Assembly: GCF_004217665.1 (NCBI RefSeq)
Contig: NZ_RXIU01000005.1
Coordinates: 1-52,596 of the forward strand
Length of the DNA stretch: 52,596 nucleotides
Source: Candidatus Magnetaquicoccus inordinatus
GTDB taxonomy: Bacteria; Pseudomonadota; Magnetococcia; Magnetococcales; Magnetaquicoccaceae
Direction: 5' to 3'
Below the pieces are notes generated by a model that searched no databases, was not told the origin of the DNA, and saw only the letters and a list, made by a program, of their open reading frames with translations. Below, one piece after another: positions 39,753-48,791 of the stretch. Positions within the stretch are counted from its first letter, which is position 1. Each line of letters starts with the position of its first letter. Position numbers and translations under genes: made by a program.

Positions 39753-42700
39753 TTATCGCACACTCAGGCGCATCCCCTGTTTACTGCTTGCCCATGCCTC
39801 TGGATTATACATGGAAAAATAGCGCACCGCTGGCACCTGCAAGCTGCCCTGGAGCGGCATCCGAATAAGATGATGCAGAATCCGTTTTTCGGCAGCAGCA
39901 GTACTGCTTCCCAAGACTGGTATGGGTACGATATAGCTCTCTGCCCGGTTTTCGGCTCTGCTCTCGCTCAGCATCAGCGGTTGCTCATCCTTGGTGAGCC
40001 CAGTCACCGCCATCCCCCAGGTGAAGGGCTCTCGTTCGCCACCGGGGGGTAAGGGCACCTCCAACAAACCATAGCGGTATGTTCCCCCTTTGCTCTCCAA
40101 AATGATTTGATCCAAATAGAGATCCTGGGCGGATAAAGGTTGATCCGCCGCAACAGGTTGGGCGCTAAAGAGGGTTTCGATTGGGTTGTCAGAATAATAG
40201 TCGGGTGTGGGACGATCGGTGAGCGGAGTCAGACGATACAAGCGCCGGGTGATGGTAATGGGCAGGGTTGGTTTGCCACCGCTGGGTCGTTGATAACGCA
40301 CTTGCGCCTGCCAAGAGGGGGGAGGAGTTTGATGCAGTTGCAGGGTATGGGGTAGAGCGCCTGCTTTCTGCGGCCAAATCCAGGAGTAGTGACCAGGCAG
40401 CTTTTCAGTGCGCAGCCAAGGAGCCTGCAGAGCGATTTGCGGGGTGCTGGATGGTTCTGGAGCAAGCCAGCGTTCCAACAACAACAGAGTGATTGCCCGA
40501 TCGATGGTGGGGGAGTCTGCGGCTACCTGTGCGAGCAGATCTGCCAAGAGATCACTGGGGGGAGTCTGCTGGCTGGCAAAGCGATTTTTATGATACAAGC
40601 GGAGTGCTTGTGCCAACACAGATCCCTCTTTTTCCATACGTGGCAGGGCAAGCTCTGCGGCCTTGTGCAATTCTGGCAGGCTGGCTGAGGGTTGATTGAG
40701 CAGCAGATCCAGCAACAACACGCTCACATCCAGAGCCTCACCGCTTTCGGGATTGCCGAGCACCATTCCAGCTTTGCCGCTGCCATAGAGTGTTGGCTTG
40801 GTCTGTTTGAGGAGCTTTTTGGCCACCCCTTGAGCCATGTTTTGTATCGGTAAGCCCAGATCCTGGGCAAACCAGAGGGTTAAAGCCTGGAGCAGGAGGG
40901 GTTCCTCTGCCATGCCTTTGCGGATCGTATCCAGCAACTTGTACCAATGATTGGCCGGTACCGTGATGGCGAGTGCCTGCAGGGCCCGCGCTTCGGCAGC
41001 ATAGGCATAGGCAGTAAAAAAGGGGCTGCCTTTGCCCTGATCACCCCACCAGGCAAAACCAGCCTCAGGACCGGCCATCTGTGCCAGACGCAGGCGTTGA
41101 TTGGCGATTCGATTGCGCAAGGGTTGCAACTGCTCGGCAGGGGCGCCATTGTGGCGCAAAGCCTGATAGGCCATGGTGAGAGGAAGCAGACGGCTGGCAG
41201 TCTGTTCGGCGCAGCCATAGGGATAGTCTATCAGATCACTGGCTAGTCGCCACCACTGTTGGCTGCCTGTGTTGCCCAAAAAAACCTGCACCTCTTGGGC
41301 ATTGGCAGGCAGGGTGAGAGGAGTGGTTTCTCCCTTGAGTGGCAAGATCAGTTGTTCACTGCTGCTTGCGGTGTGCGGCAGCAGGGTGATCGGAATTTCC
41401 AGTTGATCGATCATCGCCCCATCTGCCAGCAGTGCCGCATGCACTGTGCTCTCTTTGTCGATGGTGAGCGGCAGTGGCAAGGGATTGCTGCCCGGCTGCA
41501 GGGTCAGGGAGCGCTGCAGCTTGTCGCCAGCAGTTTGTAGCCGCAACTGCACCTGCAAGGGAGTGGAGCGATTGTTGTAGGCGGTCAAGATCCCTTGCAC
41601 CCGGTCGCCCTGACGGAAGCGGGTGGGGGCGCTCCATTTTAAGTAGGCAGCTTTGTCGGCCACAAGGGGGGCGGTTTGTTGCCCGACCAGACCATTGGAG
41701 GTGGTGGCGCGGGCGGTGATGCGCCAACGGGTGACGGCATCAGGCAGAGTAAAGCGAAAATGGGCTTTGCCGCTGCTGTCAGTGGCCAGGTGTGGCAACC
41801 ACAAGGCGGTATCGATATTTTCCCGGCGCGGGCGTTGCAACAGCTTGCTGGGACGGCGAAAGCGGCTTTCTCCCTCTGTTTTGCTGGCTGTGACCGCCTG
41901 GTCATAGGTATAAAATTGCAGACTGGAGCTGGTGCGCACCTGATTGCGTCGCCAGTGGCCAAAAAAGTCGCGAATATCAGGAGCCAACTCTGTCTGCAAC
42001 AGATATACCGCCTCATCGACGACACTGACGGTAAGATGGGCAGCAACAGGTTGTTCTCCCTGGTGGGTCGTCACCTCCACTTGCACCGTTTCACCGGGTT
42101 GGTAGCGTTCGCGGTCGCTGTGCAGAGCAATGGCAATCGGCTCATTATCGATACGAATGCCTTTGTTTTGGAACAGAAAGCTGCCCTTTTCGATCATCAA
42201 CACCGAAAAAACCCGTTGCGGCTGCATCTGAGCATCGATGGGGATCTCCACCAGCCATTGTTGATCGTTGATGCGCTGCCGACGCAACCATGCCGCTCCT
42301 TTGCTGAGCAGGGCGACCTGATGCACCTGTTCCTGTTCCAAGGTCAACAAGGCTTCGCGCACTGGGGCAGGAAAGGTGATCAGCATTTGCACACTTTGAC
42401 CTACCTGATAGCGTTGCCGGTCGCTATGGATGACAATAGAGCCTGTGGGGGCTTGCAGGCCGTTGCCGGAGACCCAGTGATTGCCGGAACCGATCACGCT
42501 TTCCTGGGCATCAAGAAGCTGGATGGCGTAGGAGCCGGGTTCGCTAAAGCGAATGCTGAACTGTTCACCTTGGATAGTGCCCTGCTGTTTGCTTTGATCT
42601 TCGAGACGGGTCGCCGACCAACGCACCGCTTCCCCGGCGGGAGAGGGGAGGCGTTGAACAGTAAAGGCAATGCTTTCTCCTGGTTGTGAAAGCTGTCGTG

Positions 42701-44384
42701 CCGAGTGCACAAGATAGTGCGGGGTGGCCGCTTCAATACGGATGGTTTTTTGGGTGCTGACCCGGGAGGAGGAGCCATCGCTGCCGACTACACGCAGATA
42801 ATAGAGGCTGGGCGTGTTGGCGGCAGGCAGGCTGAAGCGGGCTTTACCGTTATCATCGCTTTGCAACACTCTGTTTTGCAGCAGGATGGGAAAACGTCCT
42901 GGGCTGTTGGCTTCGTTTTGGGCATAGCTTTGCGCCTGGCTGCGCAGATTAAGCTCCAGGTTGAGAGCTTTGATGGGTTGACCACCCGGCTGCAAGGCAC
43001 GAATGGTGCCGTGCACGCTTTGACCGCTTTGATAGCTCTCCTGATCAAAGAGAATTTCCAATTCATAGTGTGGCTTGCTGAAACTTGCCACCCGGAAGGA
43101 GGCGGTATAGGGCTCATTCTGGTAGGTAAAACGCAGGGTATAACCGCCGGCGGGGGCCTGATCGGGCAGTTGAAACTGGCCATCGCCACCGGTTTGTGGA
43201 TCCAAATGAAAAGTAGTGCTTTGTACCGGGTGTCCTTGTGCATCGAGCACCAAGAGTGGAATGGGACCGGCCTGCAGGGGTTGCGATTGGTTTGCCTGTT
43301 GAAAATGGCGTCCCAGCAGTTTGAAACGGACGGTATCACCGGGACGATAGAGGGGGCGATCGGTGAAGGCATAGAGATGTGCAGAGTGGATTTCACTATC
43401 AAAATAGATATTTTCTGCCACCACTACTCCGCCATTTTGATCCACTCCCAACAGATAGGCCCGTTCTGGGCTGGGGCGGCTAAAGGTGGCGATGCCATCG
43501 CTGTCGCTCTTGCTCTCTTCCAGGATGCCAGTTCCATCACCCAGCAGCAAGCGGACGCCAGGGATGGCCTGCCCTGTGCGTTTGTCGGCGGTCCAGACCA
43601 CTGTTTGCTGGCCGGATGTTTTGCTGATGGCCAGCGTGTCAGCCACAAAAAGCAGGGTAGTGGCACGAAATTTTCCCAACAAGCCTTCCACCAGATAGAG
43701 TCCCGGAGCAAGCTTGCCCAGGGGCAGGCGCACGTTGCCTGGGCGCTTTTCGCTGATGTTGTGGCTGGAGCCCTGGAGTTCGATGCCAGCCCCAGCCGCA
43801 GGGATGGGTTCTGCTTCCCAGAGGGGATAGCGAAAACGGTGCAGGAGCGGTAAACCACTGATGGGTTGATATTGCGGATGATCGGCAAATTCAGTGACAT
43901 AGCTGTGCGGAGGGGCTTGGCTGAGCAGAGGAACCTGAGTGACCACTTGCGCACGGGCTTCGGCGGAAAAGAGGCGTTGCCAGGCCAGACGGGATTTTTT
44001 ATACCAGTGATCCCAGACATAGTGAAGAGCGTTGGAGAGCCCTTCGCCATCATAGCGACCGGGTTGTTGCACCCGGTGCAGATTGCTTTGCCGGCGCAAA
44101 AAATCGAGAGGATCGTTGATGCGGTATAACAAAATATCGATGCCCTCATAGCGTTGCAGAGCCTGAGCGGCTCCTTCCAGGCGTAAGGTAGCCTCTTCAT
44201 CGGGGGTGAAGCTGCTGTCGGCGAGCAGAAAAAAGGTAGCCCCTTTGGCCAATTGATAGTTGCTGGCGGCAATTCCTGGCAGGCTGTTGGCATGGCCAGG
44301 GAGGGTGCCGAGCAGGCTTAGGGCGAGAGAAATGAGAATGAATAGATGCCGAGAAAATTGGCATTTTCTTCGGTAGGTTGCCAT
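39753..44384 (-). CDS. yfaS: bacterial alpha-2-macroglobulin with thioester motif (YfaS-like)
   Basis: A 1543-residue periplasmic or surface protein of the bacterial alpha-2-macroglobulin family, which traps attacking proteases. The signal peptide is near residues 12-33. Macroglobulin beta-sandwich domains fill the first half (FTDRPLYRPGDTVRFKLLGR is the MG signature; HSDRERYQPGETVQVEV repeats the theme). DAVTRWRITARATT marks the alpha-2-M core. The thioester is intact: YGCAEQTAS with Cys1058 and Gln1061, so covalent capture should be possible. No lipobox is seen, so it fits the second (YfaS) rather than the YfhM lineage. The start at 44384 has AAGGAC six bases upstream and overlaps yfaT by 67 bases. 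No pbpC is adjacent, as is typical for the YfaS type. Confidence 0.94.
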   Translation of the reverse strand: MATYRRKCQFSRHLFILISLALSLLGTLPGHANSLPGIAASNYQLAKGATFFLLADSSFTPDEEATLRLEGAAQALQRYEGIDILLYRINDPLDFLRRQSNLHRVQQPGRYDGEGLSNALHYVWDHWYKKSRLAWQRLFSAEARAQVVTQVPLLSQAPPHSYVTEFADHPQYQPISGLPLLHRFRYPLWEAEPIPAAGAGIELQGSSHNISEKRPGNVRLPLGKLAPGLYLVEGLLGKFRATTLLFVADTLAISKTSGQQTVVWTADKRTGQAIPGVRLLLGDGTGILEESKSDSDGIATFSRPSPERAYLLGVDQNGGVVVAENIYFDSEIHSAHLYAFTDRPLYRPGDTVRFKLLGRHFQQANQSQPLQAGPIPLLVLDAQGHPVQSTTFHLDPQTGGDGQFQLPDQAPAGGYTLRFTYQNEPYTASFRVASFSKPHYELEILFDQESYQSGQSVHGTIRALQPGGQPIKALNLELNLRSQAQSYAQNEANSPGRFPILLQNRVLQSDDNGKARFSLPAANTPSLYYLRVVGSDGSSSRVSTQKTIRIEAATPHYLVHSARQLSQPGESIAFTVQRLPSPAGEAVRWSATRLEDQSKQQGTIQGEQFSIRFSEPGSYAIQLLDAQESVIGSGNHWVSGNGLQAPTGSIVIHSDRQRYQVGQSVQMLITFPAPVREALLTLEQEQVHQVALLSKGAAWLRRQRINDQQWLVEIPIDAQMQPQRVFSVLMIEKGSFLFQNKGIRIDNEPIAIALHSDRERYQPGETVQVEVTTHQGEQPVAAHLTVSVVDEAVYLLQTELAPDIRDFFGHWRRNQVRTSSSLQFYTYDQAVTASKTEGESRFRRPSKLLQRPRRENIDTALWLPHLATDSSGKAHFRFTLPDAVTRWRITARATTSNGLVGQQTAPLVADKAAYLKWSAPTRFRQGDRVQGILTAYNNRSTPLQVQLRLQTAGDKLQRSLTLQPGSNPLPLPLTIDKESTVHAALLADGAMIDQLEIPITLLPHTASSSEQLILPLKGETTPLTLPANAQEVQVFLGNTGSQQWWRLASDLIDYPYGCAEQTASRLLPLTMAYQALRHNGAPAEQLQPLRNRIANQRLRLAQMAGPEAGFAWWGDQGKGSPFFTAYAYAAEARALQALAITVPANHWYKLLDTIRKGMAEEPLLLQALTLWFAQDLGLPIQNMAQGVAKKLLKQTKPTLYGSGKAGMVLGNPESGEALDVSVLLLDLLLNQPSASLPELHKAAELALPRMEKEGSVLAQALRLYHKNRFASQQTPPSDLLADLLAQVAADSPTIDRAITLLLLERWLAPEPSSTPQIALQAPWLRTEKLPGHYSWIWPQKAGALPHTLQLHQTPPPSWQAQVRYQRPSGGKPTLPITITRRLYRLTPLTDRPTPDYYSDNPIETLFSAQPVAADQPLSAQDLYLDQIILESKGGTYRYGLLEVPLPPGGEREPFTWGMAVTGLTKDEQPLMLSESRAENRAESYIVPIPVLGSSTAAAEKRILHHLIRMPLQGSLQVPAVRYFSMYNPEAWASSKQGMRLSVR

Positions 44385-44956
44385 CGGCTGTCCTTCCAAG
44401 TAAGCAGATCCGGCCATAAAATGCGGCGCATACCATTATCATTGCGGGAGTGGCTGCCCCGGTGGTAGGCAACACCATCACCCAGCCAGATCATCAGATG
44501 TTGGTCATCGCCCTGATCATAAAAGAGTAGGTCACCGGGACGCGCCTGCACAGGGTTGCGGCTGACAAAGCGGCTGTTTTCCTGAATCAGAGCCAGAGCG
44601 GAGACATAGCTCTCCTGTTGCCCTTCGGCGCTTCGCCAGCGTTTTCCCAGTTGTTCCTGCTCGGCAGTAAGAGCCAGTTCTGCCGGAAGTTTGGCCTGCA
44701 GTAGTCCTGTGCTGTGCCGCCACTGGTAGTCGTGGGGACGGAGAGATTCGTGAACGGCATAGCGCACCAACCCGGCACAATCGCGTTGTACCCAGCGCGG
44801 GGAGGGGCCCTGGCGCAGTTGTTCGCTGACGATACGCACAAACCAGGCACGAAAAAGCTCCGATTGCGCCGGGGAGAGGGTGGCGAGGGGGCTGCGTTCG
44901 TTGGCGAAGCAGGCAGGGGAGAGCAGGAGCAGCAGCAGAATCAGTAGGTGAACCAT
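44318..44956 (-). CDS. yfaT: YfaT-like DUF1175 protein
   Basis: A 212-residue exported protein. The signal peptide is at about 1-18 (LLILLLLLLSPACFA). The DUF1175 core has WVQRDCAGLVRYAVHESL (Cys near 62), followed by RPGDLLFYDQGDDQHLMIWLGDGVAYHRG. This Cys...His arrangement resembles NlpC/P60-like papain-fold hydrolases, so a peptidoglycan amidase or peptidase activity is conceivable, though none is demonstrated. The start at 44956 is inside the end of the yfaA gene (16-base overlap), and the stop lies 67 bases inside yfaS. The order yfaA-yfaT-yfaS-yfaQ-yfaP is the same as in E. coli, which supports the identification strongly. Confidence 0.9.
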   Translation of the reverse strand: MVHLLILLLLLLSPACFANERSPLATLSPAQSELFRAWFVRIVSEQLRQGPSPRWVQRDCAGLVRYAVHESLRPHDYQWRHSTGLLQAKLPAELALTAEQEQLGKRWRSAEGQQESYVSALALIQENSRFVSRNPVQARPGDLLFYDQGDDQHLMIWLGDGVAYHRGSHSRNDNGMRRILWPDLLTWKDSRWQPTEENANFLGIYSFSFLSP

Positions 44957-46542
44957 GAAACATTTTCCCAAGTTTTAGCCTGTTGCGGGGTATGCAAGGC
45001 CAATGGTGCTGCATTTTCGAGCAGGGAGAGGCGGGGCAGCAGCCGTTGTTGGACGCTGTGACGAAACACCTTTTCACTTTCCGGGGGGAGGCTTTCCAAA
45101 AGCGTGCGTTGCAGCAGGGTAGCCAGTTGCGGCGGTTGCAGCAGCAGAGAAGCGGCTGATTGTGCGGGCAGTTGGGCGGCGACGTTGGGATAGCGTTGCT
45201 CCAGCAGGGCCAGAGCCCGTTCGGCGAGCAGGGGGTCAGGAGTAAAGATCAAGGTTTGTCGGCAGAGGGCCAAGGTGGCGAGCAGATGGCCCTGGGGATG
45301 ATTGGGGGTAGAGATTCCGTGTGCTGAACGAAGCATGCGGCGCCAGATCCGACCTTGTGGGCAGCTCTCCTCTACGACTGGTTGCAGGGGAGGGGGTGCT
45401 TTTTGGCTATCGCGTTGTGGTACAGGCGAGCCGATGGCGCGAGAGAAGAGGTTACCCAGGAGTGGCAACCAGGCAGCGGACTCCTGTTCCAGGGGCATGA
45501 CCAGCAAGGGGGTATGCAGGGCGGAGTCGCCATACCAGCAGAGGGCGGCTGGAGGTTTGAGGGCGGTCAGCAGAGAGGGTAATTGGGGATCATCGCTCCA
45601 GGGGCGCAGCAGCTCCAGCAGGCGGGCTGGCTCGACGGGCAGGGCCAAACAGAGGGCTGGGAGGGCAGGGACGCGCTGCCAGAGCTCAGTTGCTGCCGGG
45701 ATGGGGGAGCGAGCAAGCATCTGGGTCTGCCACTGCTGGCCATCATAATGGAAGCGCAGGGCCTGCAGGGAGGGAAAAAAGTGTTGATAGCCGAAGGAGA
45801 GATACTCGGTACGGATGGTGAGGGCATGTTTGCCGCTGAGAGGGGGCAACTGCAGGCTACTGCCCAGGGAGTGCTGTGGGAGATGGTGCAGAAACAACTG
45901 CAGCGCGGGGGCGCGACTGTTTTCTGCGGAACTTTCCAGCAGTGTGGGGGAGTTGCTGATGAGCAGTTGCTCACGCCAGGTTGTGAAGTAGAGGCTGCTT
46001 TTGCGTTGCAGTTGTAGCCGGTGGAGGGTGAGGGTTTGGCCATCGGGCAGGGTGAGGGTGCCCTGTTCTTGCAGTTGCCGGTCGGAGGCGGCGACTTTGG
46101 CCAGTGGTTGCAGCAGGCGCGCGGCGACTCCTTGCGGCAGGAGCAATAGATAATCCTTGAGTTTGCCATCCTTGTTTTTCCAGAGGGCCAGTTGTGCCGG
46201 GCTGTCGAGAAGATGGGCAAGGAGGCTTTCATCCCAGGAGAGATGGTGTTCATAGGCGATACGGCGCAAGGTTCCTTCGAGGCTGAGACGGGTTTCGTTT
46301 TCCTGGTAGTAGAAGAGAAAATCTTCGGAGAGCAGTTGGCTGAGAAAGGGTATGCGCAACAAATCGCGAGGCAACTGGCTTAAGGAGCGGCTTTGGATCA
46401 AGAGATCCGGGTGGAAGAGAGGATCCCCTGGGATGGGTTCGCTGAAGGGCGGATCGAGTGAAGCAACAGGGGTAAAGCGCCACCAAGCCAGGGCAAGGAG
46501 CAGGCCAAACAGGCCAAGAAAGAGGAGAGCTTTATGACGCAT
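44941..46542 (-). CDS. yfaA: YfaA-like DUF2138 protein
   Basis: A 533-residue protein anchored by an N-terminal membrane segment (about 5-22) with a large periplasmic part. It matches DUF2138 in layout and in segments such as DLLIQSRSLSQLPRDLLRIPFLSQLL, LSEDFLFYYQENETRLSLEGTLRRIAYEH and ALCWYGDSALHTPL. Its function is unknown in all organisms; it always accompanies the macroglobulin cluster. It is the first gene of the operon in this window, transcribed leftward from the 250-base gap shared with the rightward ATPase/HNH module. No clear leftward promoter was found in that gap. Confidence 0.88.
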   Translation of the reverse strand: MRHKALLFLGLFGLLLALAWWRFTPVASLDPPFSEPIPGDPLFHPDLLIQSRSLSQLPRDLLRIPFLSQLLSEDFLFYYQENETRLSLEGTLRRIAYEHHLSWDESLLAHLLDSPAQLALWKNKDGKLKDYLLLLPQGVAARLLQPLAKVAASDRQLQEQGTLTLPDGQTLTLHRLQLQRKSSLYFTTWREQLLISNSPTLLESSAENSRAPALQLFLHHLPQHSLGSSLQLPPLSGKHALTIRTEYLSFGYQHFFPSLQALRFHYDGQQWQTQMLARSPIPAATELWQRVPALPALCLALPVEPARLLELLRPWSDDPQLPSLLTALKPPAALCWYGDSALHTPLLVMPLEQESAAWLPLLGNLFSRAIGSPVPQRDSQKAPPPLQPVVEESCPQGRIWRRMLRSAHGISTPNHPQGHLLATLALCRQTLIFTPDPLLAERALALLEQRYPNVAAQLPAQSAASLLLQPPQLATLLQRTLLESLPPESEKVFRHSVQQRLLPRLSLLENAAPLALHTPQQAKTWENVSWFTY

Positions 46543-46735
46543 GCGCGTTTCTTGTTTGGGTAGGAATCAGTATCTGATCCATGTGACCGAATTTTGTCTC
46601 TTCAGGATACACACGCTGACCAGGATGTTCAAATATTTTGCAATGGGTACAGATCTTTCTGTGTGGGTGCGAGTGGATTGTGTTGCTGCTTGGGTCGCTC
46701 AGTTTATCAGCAGATTTTGCCGTACTATCCGTTTC

Positions 46736-46764
46736 TTGAATGCCAGAGCAAAACTCTCTATCAT
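46736..46764 (+). promoter_or_regulatory. sigma70 promoter of the ATPase/HNH module
   Basis: TTGAAT and TATCAT separated by exactly 17 bases. The predicted start is about 25 bases before the ATG at 46796, which gives the module its own short-leader promoter, independent of the divergent yfa operon. Confidence 0.65.
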
Positions 46765-46795
46765 GAGCTTCTGCTAACGTAAGGCAACCCCATTT

Positions 46796-48127
46796 ATGTG
46801 GATAGTTATGCTTAAACAATTGACTCTGAAAAATGTGGGACCAGCTCCTTTCATGGAGCTCCATTTTAGTGATCGCTTGAATCTGTTGACTGGAGACAAT
46901 GGGCTTGGGAAAACATTTCTTTTGGATGCGGCTTGGTGGGCATTGACCAGAAGTTGGCCTGCTGAAGTCAATACCAAGTTGAGTTCAGGAATGATGGCCA
47001 AACCACATGGTGAAAAGTGGGAAAGAGCCGTTATAGAGTTCTCTTTTGCAACTAATAGTGGACCAGTCCAGGGTGAATTCCATTTTGACCACAAACATCA
47101 AGACTGGAATGGTAAGTACTGTGTTCCTTTTTCAGGATTGGTATTTTACGCACTGGCCAATGGCAGTATGGCTCTGTGGGATCCAAATCGGACATCATTA
47201 CATAGACCAAATATGGTTTGGAATGGCTGGGATCCGCATCATCGTCCCCCAGCTTATGTATTTAATTCTGAAGAGATTTGGAATGGTTTGCATGACAGTT
47301 CTGGCAAGCGACTGTGCAATGGTCTGCTTGCAGATTGGGCAGGATGGCAGAAGGAACATGGCGCGACAATCAAGGCGTTGGCAAATATTCTTTCGACATT
47401 GGCCCCGTCTGCAGATGAAGGGATGACCATTGGCGATTTGAGCCGCATCAGTTTGACTGATGTGCGGGATATACCTACGTTGAAGATGCCATACGGGCAG
47501 GAGGTGCCTGTTTTGTATGCCTCTTCGGCGATTCGTCGCATACTCTCTCTTTGTTATCTTCTGGTATGGGCATGGCAGGAGCACAGCCACGCATGCAAAC
47601 TGCTTGGCGAACCCATGGCCAAGCGGTTTGTCTTTTTGATTGATGAAATAGAAGCACATCTGCATCCAAAGTGGCAGCGCAGCATTATCCGTTCGCTTTT
47701 GCATATGGCAAATGAGGTTGCTGTCCTGTTTCCTGGTGTACAGGTACAATTTATCATTACCACACACACCCCTCTTGTGCTTGCCTCCATGGAACCATTT
47801 TTTGATGCAGTACAGGATAAATGGTTTGATATTGATCTTCTTGCCGACAAAGATGGCACTTTCCTGGTGCAATTGAGTGAACAGCCATTTATTCGCAGGG
47901 GAGATGCCAGCAACTGGCTGACCAGCAAAGCTTTTGATTTGCAGAGTGGCTGTTCTCTGGAAGCCGAAGAGGCTTTGGCAGAGGCTTCTGCATTGCTGAG
48001 CAGAGAGTCGGTTACGATTGCTGAAGCAAGAGGGATGGAAGAGAAGTTGCGGATGGTATTGGGTGATACCGATCCATTCTGGGTTCGCTGGCGTTTTATA
48101 CTGGAGAAAAAGGGATTACTGTCATGA
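46796..48127 (+). CDS. PtuA-like AAA/ABC-type ATPase of a Septu-like defence module
   Basis: A 443-residue ATPase of the ABC-ATPase-like AAA group (RecF/SMC/OLD fold). The Walker A is GDNGLGKT (residues 33-40). An ABC-signature-like region follows the linker (SSAIRRILSLCYLLVWAW). Walker B is FVFLIDEIEAHLHPKWQ with Asp283-Glu284, and the H-loop is FIITTHTPLVLASM. The compact size, C-terminal Glu-rich helices and direct coupling to an HNH-type protein match PtuA of the Septu anti-phage system. Two starts are possible (46796 and 46808); both lie just after a good promoter. The DNA is visibly AT-richer than its neighbours and codon choice differs, suggesting acquisition. It lies between the yfa operon and an unrelated oxidoreductase. 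The role in defence is inferred from gene pairing. Confidence 0.85.
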   Translation: MWIVMLKQLTLKNVGPAPFMELHFSDRLNLLTGDNGLGKTFLLDAAWWALTRSWPAEVNTKLSSGMMAKPHGEKWERAVIEFSFATNSGPVQGEFHFDHKHQDWNGKYCVPFSGLVFYALANGSMALWDPNRTSLHRPNMVWNGWDPHHRPPAYVFNSEEIWNGLHDSSGKRLCNGLLADWAGWQKEHGATIKALANILSTLAPSADEGMTIGDLSRISLTDVRDIPTLKMPYGQEVPVLYASSAIRRILSLCYLLVWAWQEHSHACKLLGEPMAKRFVFLIDEIEAHLHPKWQRSIIRSLLHMANEVAVLFPGVQVQFIITTHTPLVLASMEPFFDAVQDKWFDIDLLADKDGTFLVQLSEQPFIRRGDASNWLTSKAFDLQSGCSLEAEEALAEASALLSRESVTIAEARGMEEKLRMVLGDTDPFWVRWRFILEKKGLLS

Positions 48128-48723
48128 TTCCCGTCTCTCCTCAATCCGAACCGGCACAGTTTAATAGTACAGTACGGCAAAAAGGCTTGGCCTATTTACA
48201 CAAGAGAGGTTTGGCGTTGGATAAACCGCTACCACCAGGGACAACAATCGAATCCTATTGGCGGAGCTCTTTGGATGATTTGTACCGATCATATCAGGGT
48301 ACTTGCGCTTATTTGGCTGTTTATTTTGATAGAGGTATAGGAGCTGCTTCGGTGGATCATTTTGTCGCCAAATCCAGTTTGCCTGGATTGGCTTATGAAT
48401 GGAGCAACTATCGGTTGGCCTGCTTGGCGATGAATAGCAGGAAAAACAGCTTTGATGATCTATTGGATCCCTTTACGTTAGAGATTGGTTGGTTTCACTT
48501 GGAACTGTTGCAGGGGCGTATTTTTCCTAACCCGCACCTTACTTCCACACAGCAAGAGCAAGTGCAAAAGAGTATCAAGCGTTTGGGACTGGATGACCCG
48601 TTGTACAATGCGTTGCGCAGAGGACATTATCAGGATTATATCAATGGTGACTACACTGAACGATATTTGCAAAAAATATCTCCCTTTGTCTGGATGGAAG
48701 CACAGCGTCAGGGTTTGTTATAA
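48124..48723 (+). CDS. PtuB-like HNH-family endonuclease
   Basis: A 199-residue protein whose start overlaps the ATPase stop (ATGA), so the two are made together. The HNH-like core is SVDHFVAKS (Asp78-His79) followed by YEWSNYRLACLAMNSRKN, which gives the D-H...N...N-x-K pattern of PtuB and retron-associated HNH proteins. The usual zinc-binding cysteine pair before the core is replaced by CAYLAVYFDR, so a structural zinc is doubtful and this is a divergent subgroup. The C-terminal half (FHLELLQGRIFPNP, then RLGLDDPLYNALR and FVWMEAQRQGLL) is conserved in style but has no known activity. In Septu, the nuclease subunit is activated by the ATPase upon infection. Function here is inferred from the motif and operon structure. 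Confidence 0.82.
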   Translation: MIPVSPQSEPAQFNSTVRQKGLAYLHKRGLALDKPLPPGTTIESYWRSSLDDLYRSYQGTCAYLAVYFDRGIGAASVDHFVAKSSLPGLAYEWSNYRLACLAMNSRKNSFDDLLDPFTLEIGWFHLELLQGRIFPNPHLTSTQQEQVQKSIKRLGLDDPLYNALRRGHYQDYINGDYTERYLQKISPFVWMEAQRQGLL

Positions 48724-48791
48724 CATGCAGGATTAAACAATCTGCTGTAAAAGATGGAACTATTGGCTGTTGTCATGTCAACTGATCCAAC

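Follow-up and report, generated by a model that had tools for sequence, protein, structure and literature searches.

A Solo ATPase–HNH Gene Pair of Candidatus Magnetaquicoccus inordinatus Is Very Probably a Type I Septu Module with Relatives in BREX Loci

Introduction

In the PADLOC classification of Septu antiphage systems, type II is the form that bears a reverse transcriptase (RT), and type I is the form without it (PMC8565338). For PtuB of the E. coli Septu system Ec-B88, the residues H75 and N91 were found to be essential for defence (PMC13096335). An earlier publication has already noted, in a general way, that HNH proteins pair with ABC/OLD ATPases in BREX loci (PMC12839542).

The window analysed here is a stretch of 52,596 nucleotides from Candidatus Magnetaquicoccus inordinatus. 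Its first-pass annotation described a Septu-like pair of an ATPase and a small HNH-type protein and proposed that the pair might be a separate Septu subtype or a distinct two-gene defence system. The analysis presented below indicates that the two genes, designated ptuA and ptuB, very probably form a complete, solo type I Septu antiphage module, which is already recognised by standard defence-gene catalogues. The only feature that goes beyond the routine is the BREX-slot context of the relatives.

Results

The ptuA gene (46796..48127, + strand) encodes an ABC/OLD-like ATPase of 443 aa and is followed on the same strand by ptuB (48124..48723), which encodes a predicted HNH nuclease of 199 aa. 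Both open reading frames, as well as the ATGA overlap noted earlier between them, were confirmed. Most relatives of PtuA start at Met5 of the window ORF; thus, position 46808 may be the true start of ptuA and is probably the start conserved in the family.

Searches against PtuA and PtuB profile models, which had been proposed as a check of the Septu-like assignment, gave end-to-end matches for both proteins. PtuA matched the PADLOC model PtuA1 (PDLC00307) with an E-value of 4.4e-158 over residues 5-440 (profile positions 1-421 of 424), and PtuB matched PtuB1 (PDLC00348) with an E-value of 3.9e-67 over residues 1-198. Profile matches to the E. coli Septu proteins were also obtained, both for PtuB (8ee7, E 9e-7) and for PtuA. 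The folds were predicted by AlphaFold2 (AF2) on single chains, using alignments of the window and relative proteins, and reached a pLDDT of 92.4 for PtuA and 96.5 for PtuB. Each of the 50 best PDB matches of the PtuA model was a chain from a Septu or type I-A retron complex, and the PDB matches of the PtuB model at E ≤0.001 (11 of 11) were all PtuB of retrons or of the E. coli Septu. The Septu-like character of the pair was thereby borne out. Meanwhile, the proposal of a separate subtype or a distinct system was not upheld, since this lineage is already represented by PDLC00307 and PDLC00348, with matches along almost the full length of these models.

The scores obtained with the NCBIfam models stayed below the curated cut-offs, namely 37.6 versus 52.15 bits for TIGR02646 and 25.1 versus 150 bits for the PtuB equivalog, and the same was true for PtuA. 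As the NCBIfam PtuA and PtuB models were trained on retron proteins, such scores fit better with a type I Septu than with a retron. No RT was found among the ORFs neighbouring ptuAB, and the gene upstream of ptuA encodes a DUF2138 protein on the opposite strand. The absence of an RT had been regarded as unusual; by the PADLOC definition, however, the RT is a feature of type II, and its absence is the normal state of type I (PMC8565338). The locus thus combines what is expected of type I Septu: a full-length PtuA model match, a PtuB with an intact catalytic core, and adjacent genes without an RT. The combination of RT (PtuC) and msr-msd with ptuAB that is expected of type I-A retrons (Septu type II) is not seen here, and the partner of ptuA encodes the HNH protein PtuB instead of the TOPRIM protein AriB of PARIS.

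The HNH core of PtuB extends from C61 to K107 (48304..48444, + strand) and includes D78-H79, N95, N104, and K107. C61, H79, N95, N104, and K107 are invariant in 68 PtuB relatives, and the spacing between H79 and N95 equals that between H75 and N91 in Ec-B88 PtuB. In the AF2 model, a strand at 76-79 containing D78-H79 is followed by a strand at 96-99, after N95, and by a helix at 101-107 containing N104 and K107; this predicted strand–strand–helix order is that of the beta-beta-alpha-metal arrangement. The first-pass annotation had named the lack of this fold in the small protein as evidence against its reading, and the topology is present in the predicted model.

In contrast to the catalytic core, the cysteines expected of a zinc knuckle are incomplete. 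Among the 68 PtuB sequences, none has Cys at position 64, where the second Cys of CxxC would be expected, only 1 has it at position 103, and 15 show a CxxxC form; the window PtuB has Cys at neither position. At the place of CxxC, the sequence reads CAYLAVYF in the window PtuB, CCYSE in the solved PtuB of E. coli Septu, and CAYC in the retron PtuB. The contrast noted earlier is therefore one between lineages and not between the window protein and Septu; CAYLAVYF, previously seen as an anomaly, represents the family norm, and the E. coli Septu PtuB does without CxxC as well. These alignments suggest that the structural zinc was lost in the lineage of the window PtuB. Within this Septu lineage, loss of the second zinc-knuckle Cys is a common trait that does not define a new system, which removes the supposed novelty of the protein.

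These data also bear on the possibility that the pair is a distinct two-gene system outside Septu, having a non-zinc HNH partner and a different biology. The missing second cysteines, the NCBIfam scores below the cut-offs, and structural alignments showing only 14-21% identity to PtuB and PtuA of solved structures would agree with it. However, both proteins are matched from end to end by the PADLOC models PtuA1 and PtuB1, the significant structural matches of PtuB are all PtuB, and the E. coli Septu PtuB shares the absence of CxxC, which makes such a system very improbable.

The motifs of PtuA were examined in 52 relatives. Residues G33, G36, G38, and K39 of the Walker A motif GDNGLGKT (residues 33-40; 46892..46915, + strand) were invariant, as were D283 and E284 of Walker B and H324 of the H-loop. 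In the ABC-signature-like motif ASSAIRR, the window PtuA has Ala245, where 46 of the 52 sequences have Gly. As Ala is also found at this position in five other lineages, Ala245 is probably tolerated. In the comparison with same-genus relatives, dN was about 0.19-0.25 and dS about 1.0-1.6, the latter being near saturation. The low dN relative to dS and the open reading frames indicate that ptuA and ptuB are intact and under purifying selection, as far as can be judged from the substitution pattern.

The genome-wide scan revealed PtuB directly downstream of the PtuA homologue in 75 of 80 loci belonging to many phyla; at least one of the five loci without a downstream PtuB is cut by a contig end. 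A same-order genome, G030, carries a locus identical to that of a Magnetococcales record, which places the window in this order. PtuB is distributed patchily, being present at 1e-5 in 17 of the 61 related genomes. A second PtuA–PtuB pair is present in the same genome on contig C210 (L002:36-2023, − strand); its best models are PDLC00271 and PDLC00344, and its PtuB has CAYC, unlike the window PtuB. A PtuB homologue with an in-frame TAA near the C-terminus was seen in genome G008 (L008:850-1510, − strand).

The N-terminal P-loop region of PtuA gave RecF-, RecN-, and SMC-like matches, as might be expected if the pair were a housekeeping DNA-repair ATPase and nuclease. The patchy distribution, the defence neighbourhoods described below, and the lack of a conserved housekeeping partner speak against this, and we regard a repair function as ruled out by the genomic context, with almost no probability left to it. 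Homologues lying outside defence islands beside a conserved housekeeping partner had been named earlier as evidence against a defence module, and this is not the pattern observed.

The DNA around ptuAB (46543..48791) has a GC content of 45.9%, compared with a mean of 53.9% (sd 2.0) for the other window segments of the same size (n = 183), 0 of which reach so low a value. Similarly, GC3 is 0.45-0.46 in ptuA and ptuB versus 0.58-0.66 in the flanking genes. These comparisons agree with the AT-richness relative to the flanks noted before and support acquisition from elsewhere; the window copy was probably acquired horizontally. Direct or inverted repeats that would mark a mobile element amounted only to short, chance-like pairs in the window, and none of its three tRNAs (at 3.7-4.0 kb) marks a mobile element at ptuAB. 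The proposed promoter TTGAAT-17-TATCAT (46736..46764, + strand) is present as a motif, but it is a chance-level match without significance, with 3 such sites found versus 3.1 expected in shuffles.

Upstream of ptuA, the opposite strand carries consecutive DUF2138, DUF1175, and alpha-2-macroglobulin genes (39756-46542). An insertion between conserved loci, as assumed originally, could not be demonstrated, given that one of the two flanking genes is present in only 2 and the other in only 3 of the seven same-genus genomes, a set that includes the own genome of the window. They were not found side by side in the other same-genus genomes, so there is no empty site for comparison.

The survey of the neighbours of homologues, suggested at the outset, placed them in defence loci, including BREX. 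Around 26 homologues, 126 PADLOC models were matched at 1e-25, while the control, 30 other genes of the window, matched 0 models at this threshold, and no other defence gene was found in the window; as the control is a single window, the contrast is only indicative. In the same-genus genome G001 (L102), the gene order is brxC-pglX-ptuA-ptuB-pglZ-brxL, each BREX gene being confirmed by PADLOC. The pglX-pglZ slot of another same-genus genome, G006 (L104), holds an AbiU-like protein gene, ptuAB, and Ppl-like and AlbA-type genes. This slot is therefore a variable cargo slot in the two BREX loci. The G003 copy of ptuAB is preceded by Ppl-like and AlbA-type genes and lies at a contig end. In the same-genus genome G004 (L103:9609-10090), only pieces of AlbA-type, PglZ, and BrxL genes lie beside an intact ptuAB and an intact AbiU-like gene; this is a BREX locus whose cargo was retained after the core had been lost. 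In unrelated bacteria, ptuAB is likewise enclosed by pglX and pglZ, namely in Oceanisphaera, Zoogloea, Vreelandella, a Chlorobiaceae MAG, and Aeromonas caviae; in Halomonas, pglZ-brxL lies downstream of the pair.

When G003 and G004 were treated as BREX-linked, a PtuA tree of 63 sequences required nine changes of the BREX label, at least six of them forced by well-supported branches, and the label was no more clustered than in shuffles. This means that BREX nesting arose or was lost repeatedly. BREX was detected at at least 4 of the 58 genome-contig loci with more than 12 kb of sequence, a lower bound obtained by comparison with one BREX type only; at this bound, most ptuAB copies are not shown inside BREX.

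Given that its relatives in the genus are located within BREX or next to BREX genes, the window copy may be a cargo module that has become detached from BREX. A rival reading is that the pair has been left stranded, as the decaying remainder of a BREX-associated module that has lost its function. The sister sequences are BREX-nested, BREX has decayed beside the intact ptuAB of G004, and the window branch is longer than those of its sisters (0.37 versus 0.23-0.24) and carries the signature residue A245. Nevertheless, both window ORFs are intact with all catalytic residues kept, dN/dS is well below 1, and no flanking BREX remnants were found around the window ptuAB (best E 0.1), so we consider decay improbable and retain the complete type I Septu module as the preferred reading.

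Discussion

By analogy with the studied Septu and retron systems, from which we infer complex formation, trigger, and target, ptuAB is best read as an abortive-infection nuclease. An oligomer of PtuA, an ATP-binding ABC-type ATPase, would carry and restrain PtuB until a phage-triggered signal frees its HNH nuclease. The freed PtuB would then cut nucleic acid, either phage DNA or host tRNA, and phage production would stop.

A broader and tentative idea, which we hold to be possible but rather doubtful, is that PtuAB of this lineage repeatedly occupies the pglX-pglZ slot as cargo and acts as a reserve effector once phages have disabled BREX. In that view, the window copy would have departed from BREX and would function by itself, with an HNH nuclease that lacks the zinc knuckle. 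The BREX-nested, BREX-decayed, and solo copies of ptuAB in one genus provide a natural comparison set, with which one can ask if a nested Septu needs BREX or instead acts as its backup.

Among the described systems, PARIS AriA–AriB and other ABC/OLD ATPase–effector modules resemble ptuAB in having a related ATPase as the sensor and in being recruited to BREX loci. Their difference from the window pair lies in the effector, which is HNH here and not TOPRIM, and the AriA model matches the window PtuA only partially. The PtuAB proteins of type I-A retrons (Ec78/Eco7, Ec83) share the ATPase–HNH pairing, the folds, and the HNH residues, but the window has no RT, the retron PtuA is longer (about 550 aa), and the retron PtuB has CAYC. 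The E. coli Septu PtuAB (PDB 8ee4, 8ee7, 8eea) has the same folds and a PtuB without the CxxC zinc knuckle at the same place, although the identity in structural alignment is about 14-17% and the window PtuB is shorter (199 versus 243 aa). Finally, nothing was found that sets the window pair apart from the PADLOC lineage of type I Septu (PDLC00307/PDLC00348), with which it shares an ATPase gene followed by an HNH gene, full-length model matches, and the absence of an RT.
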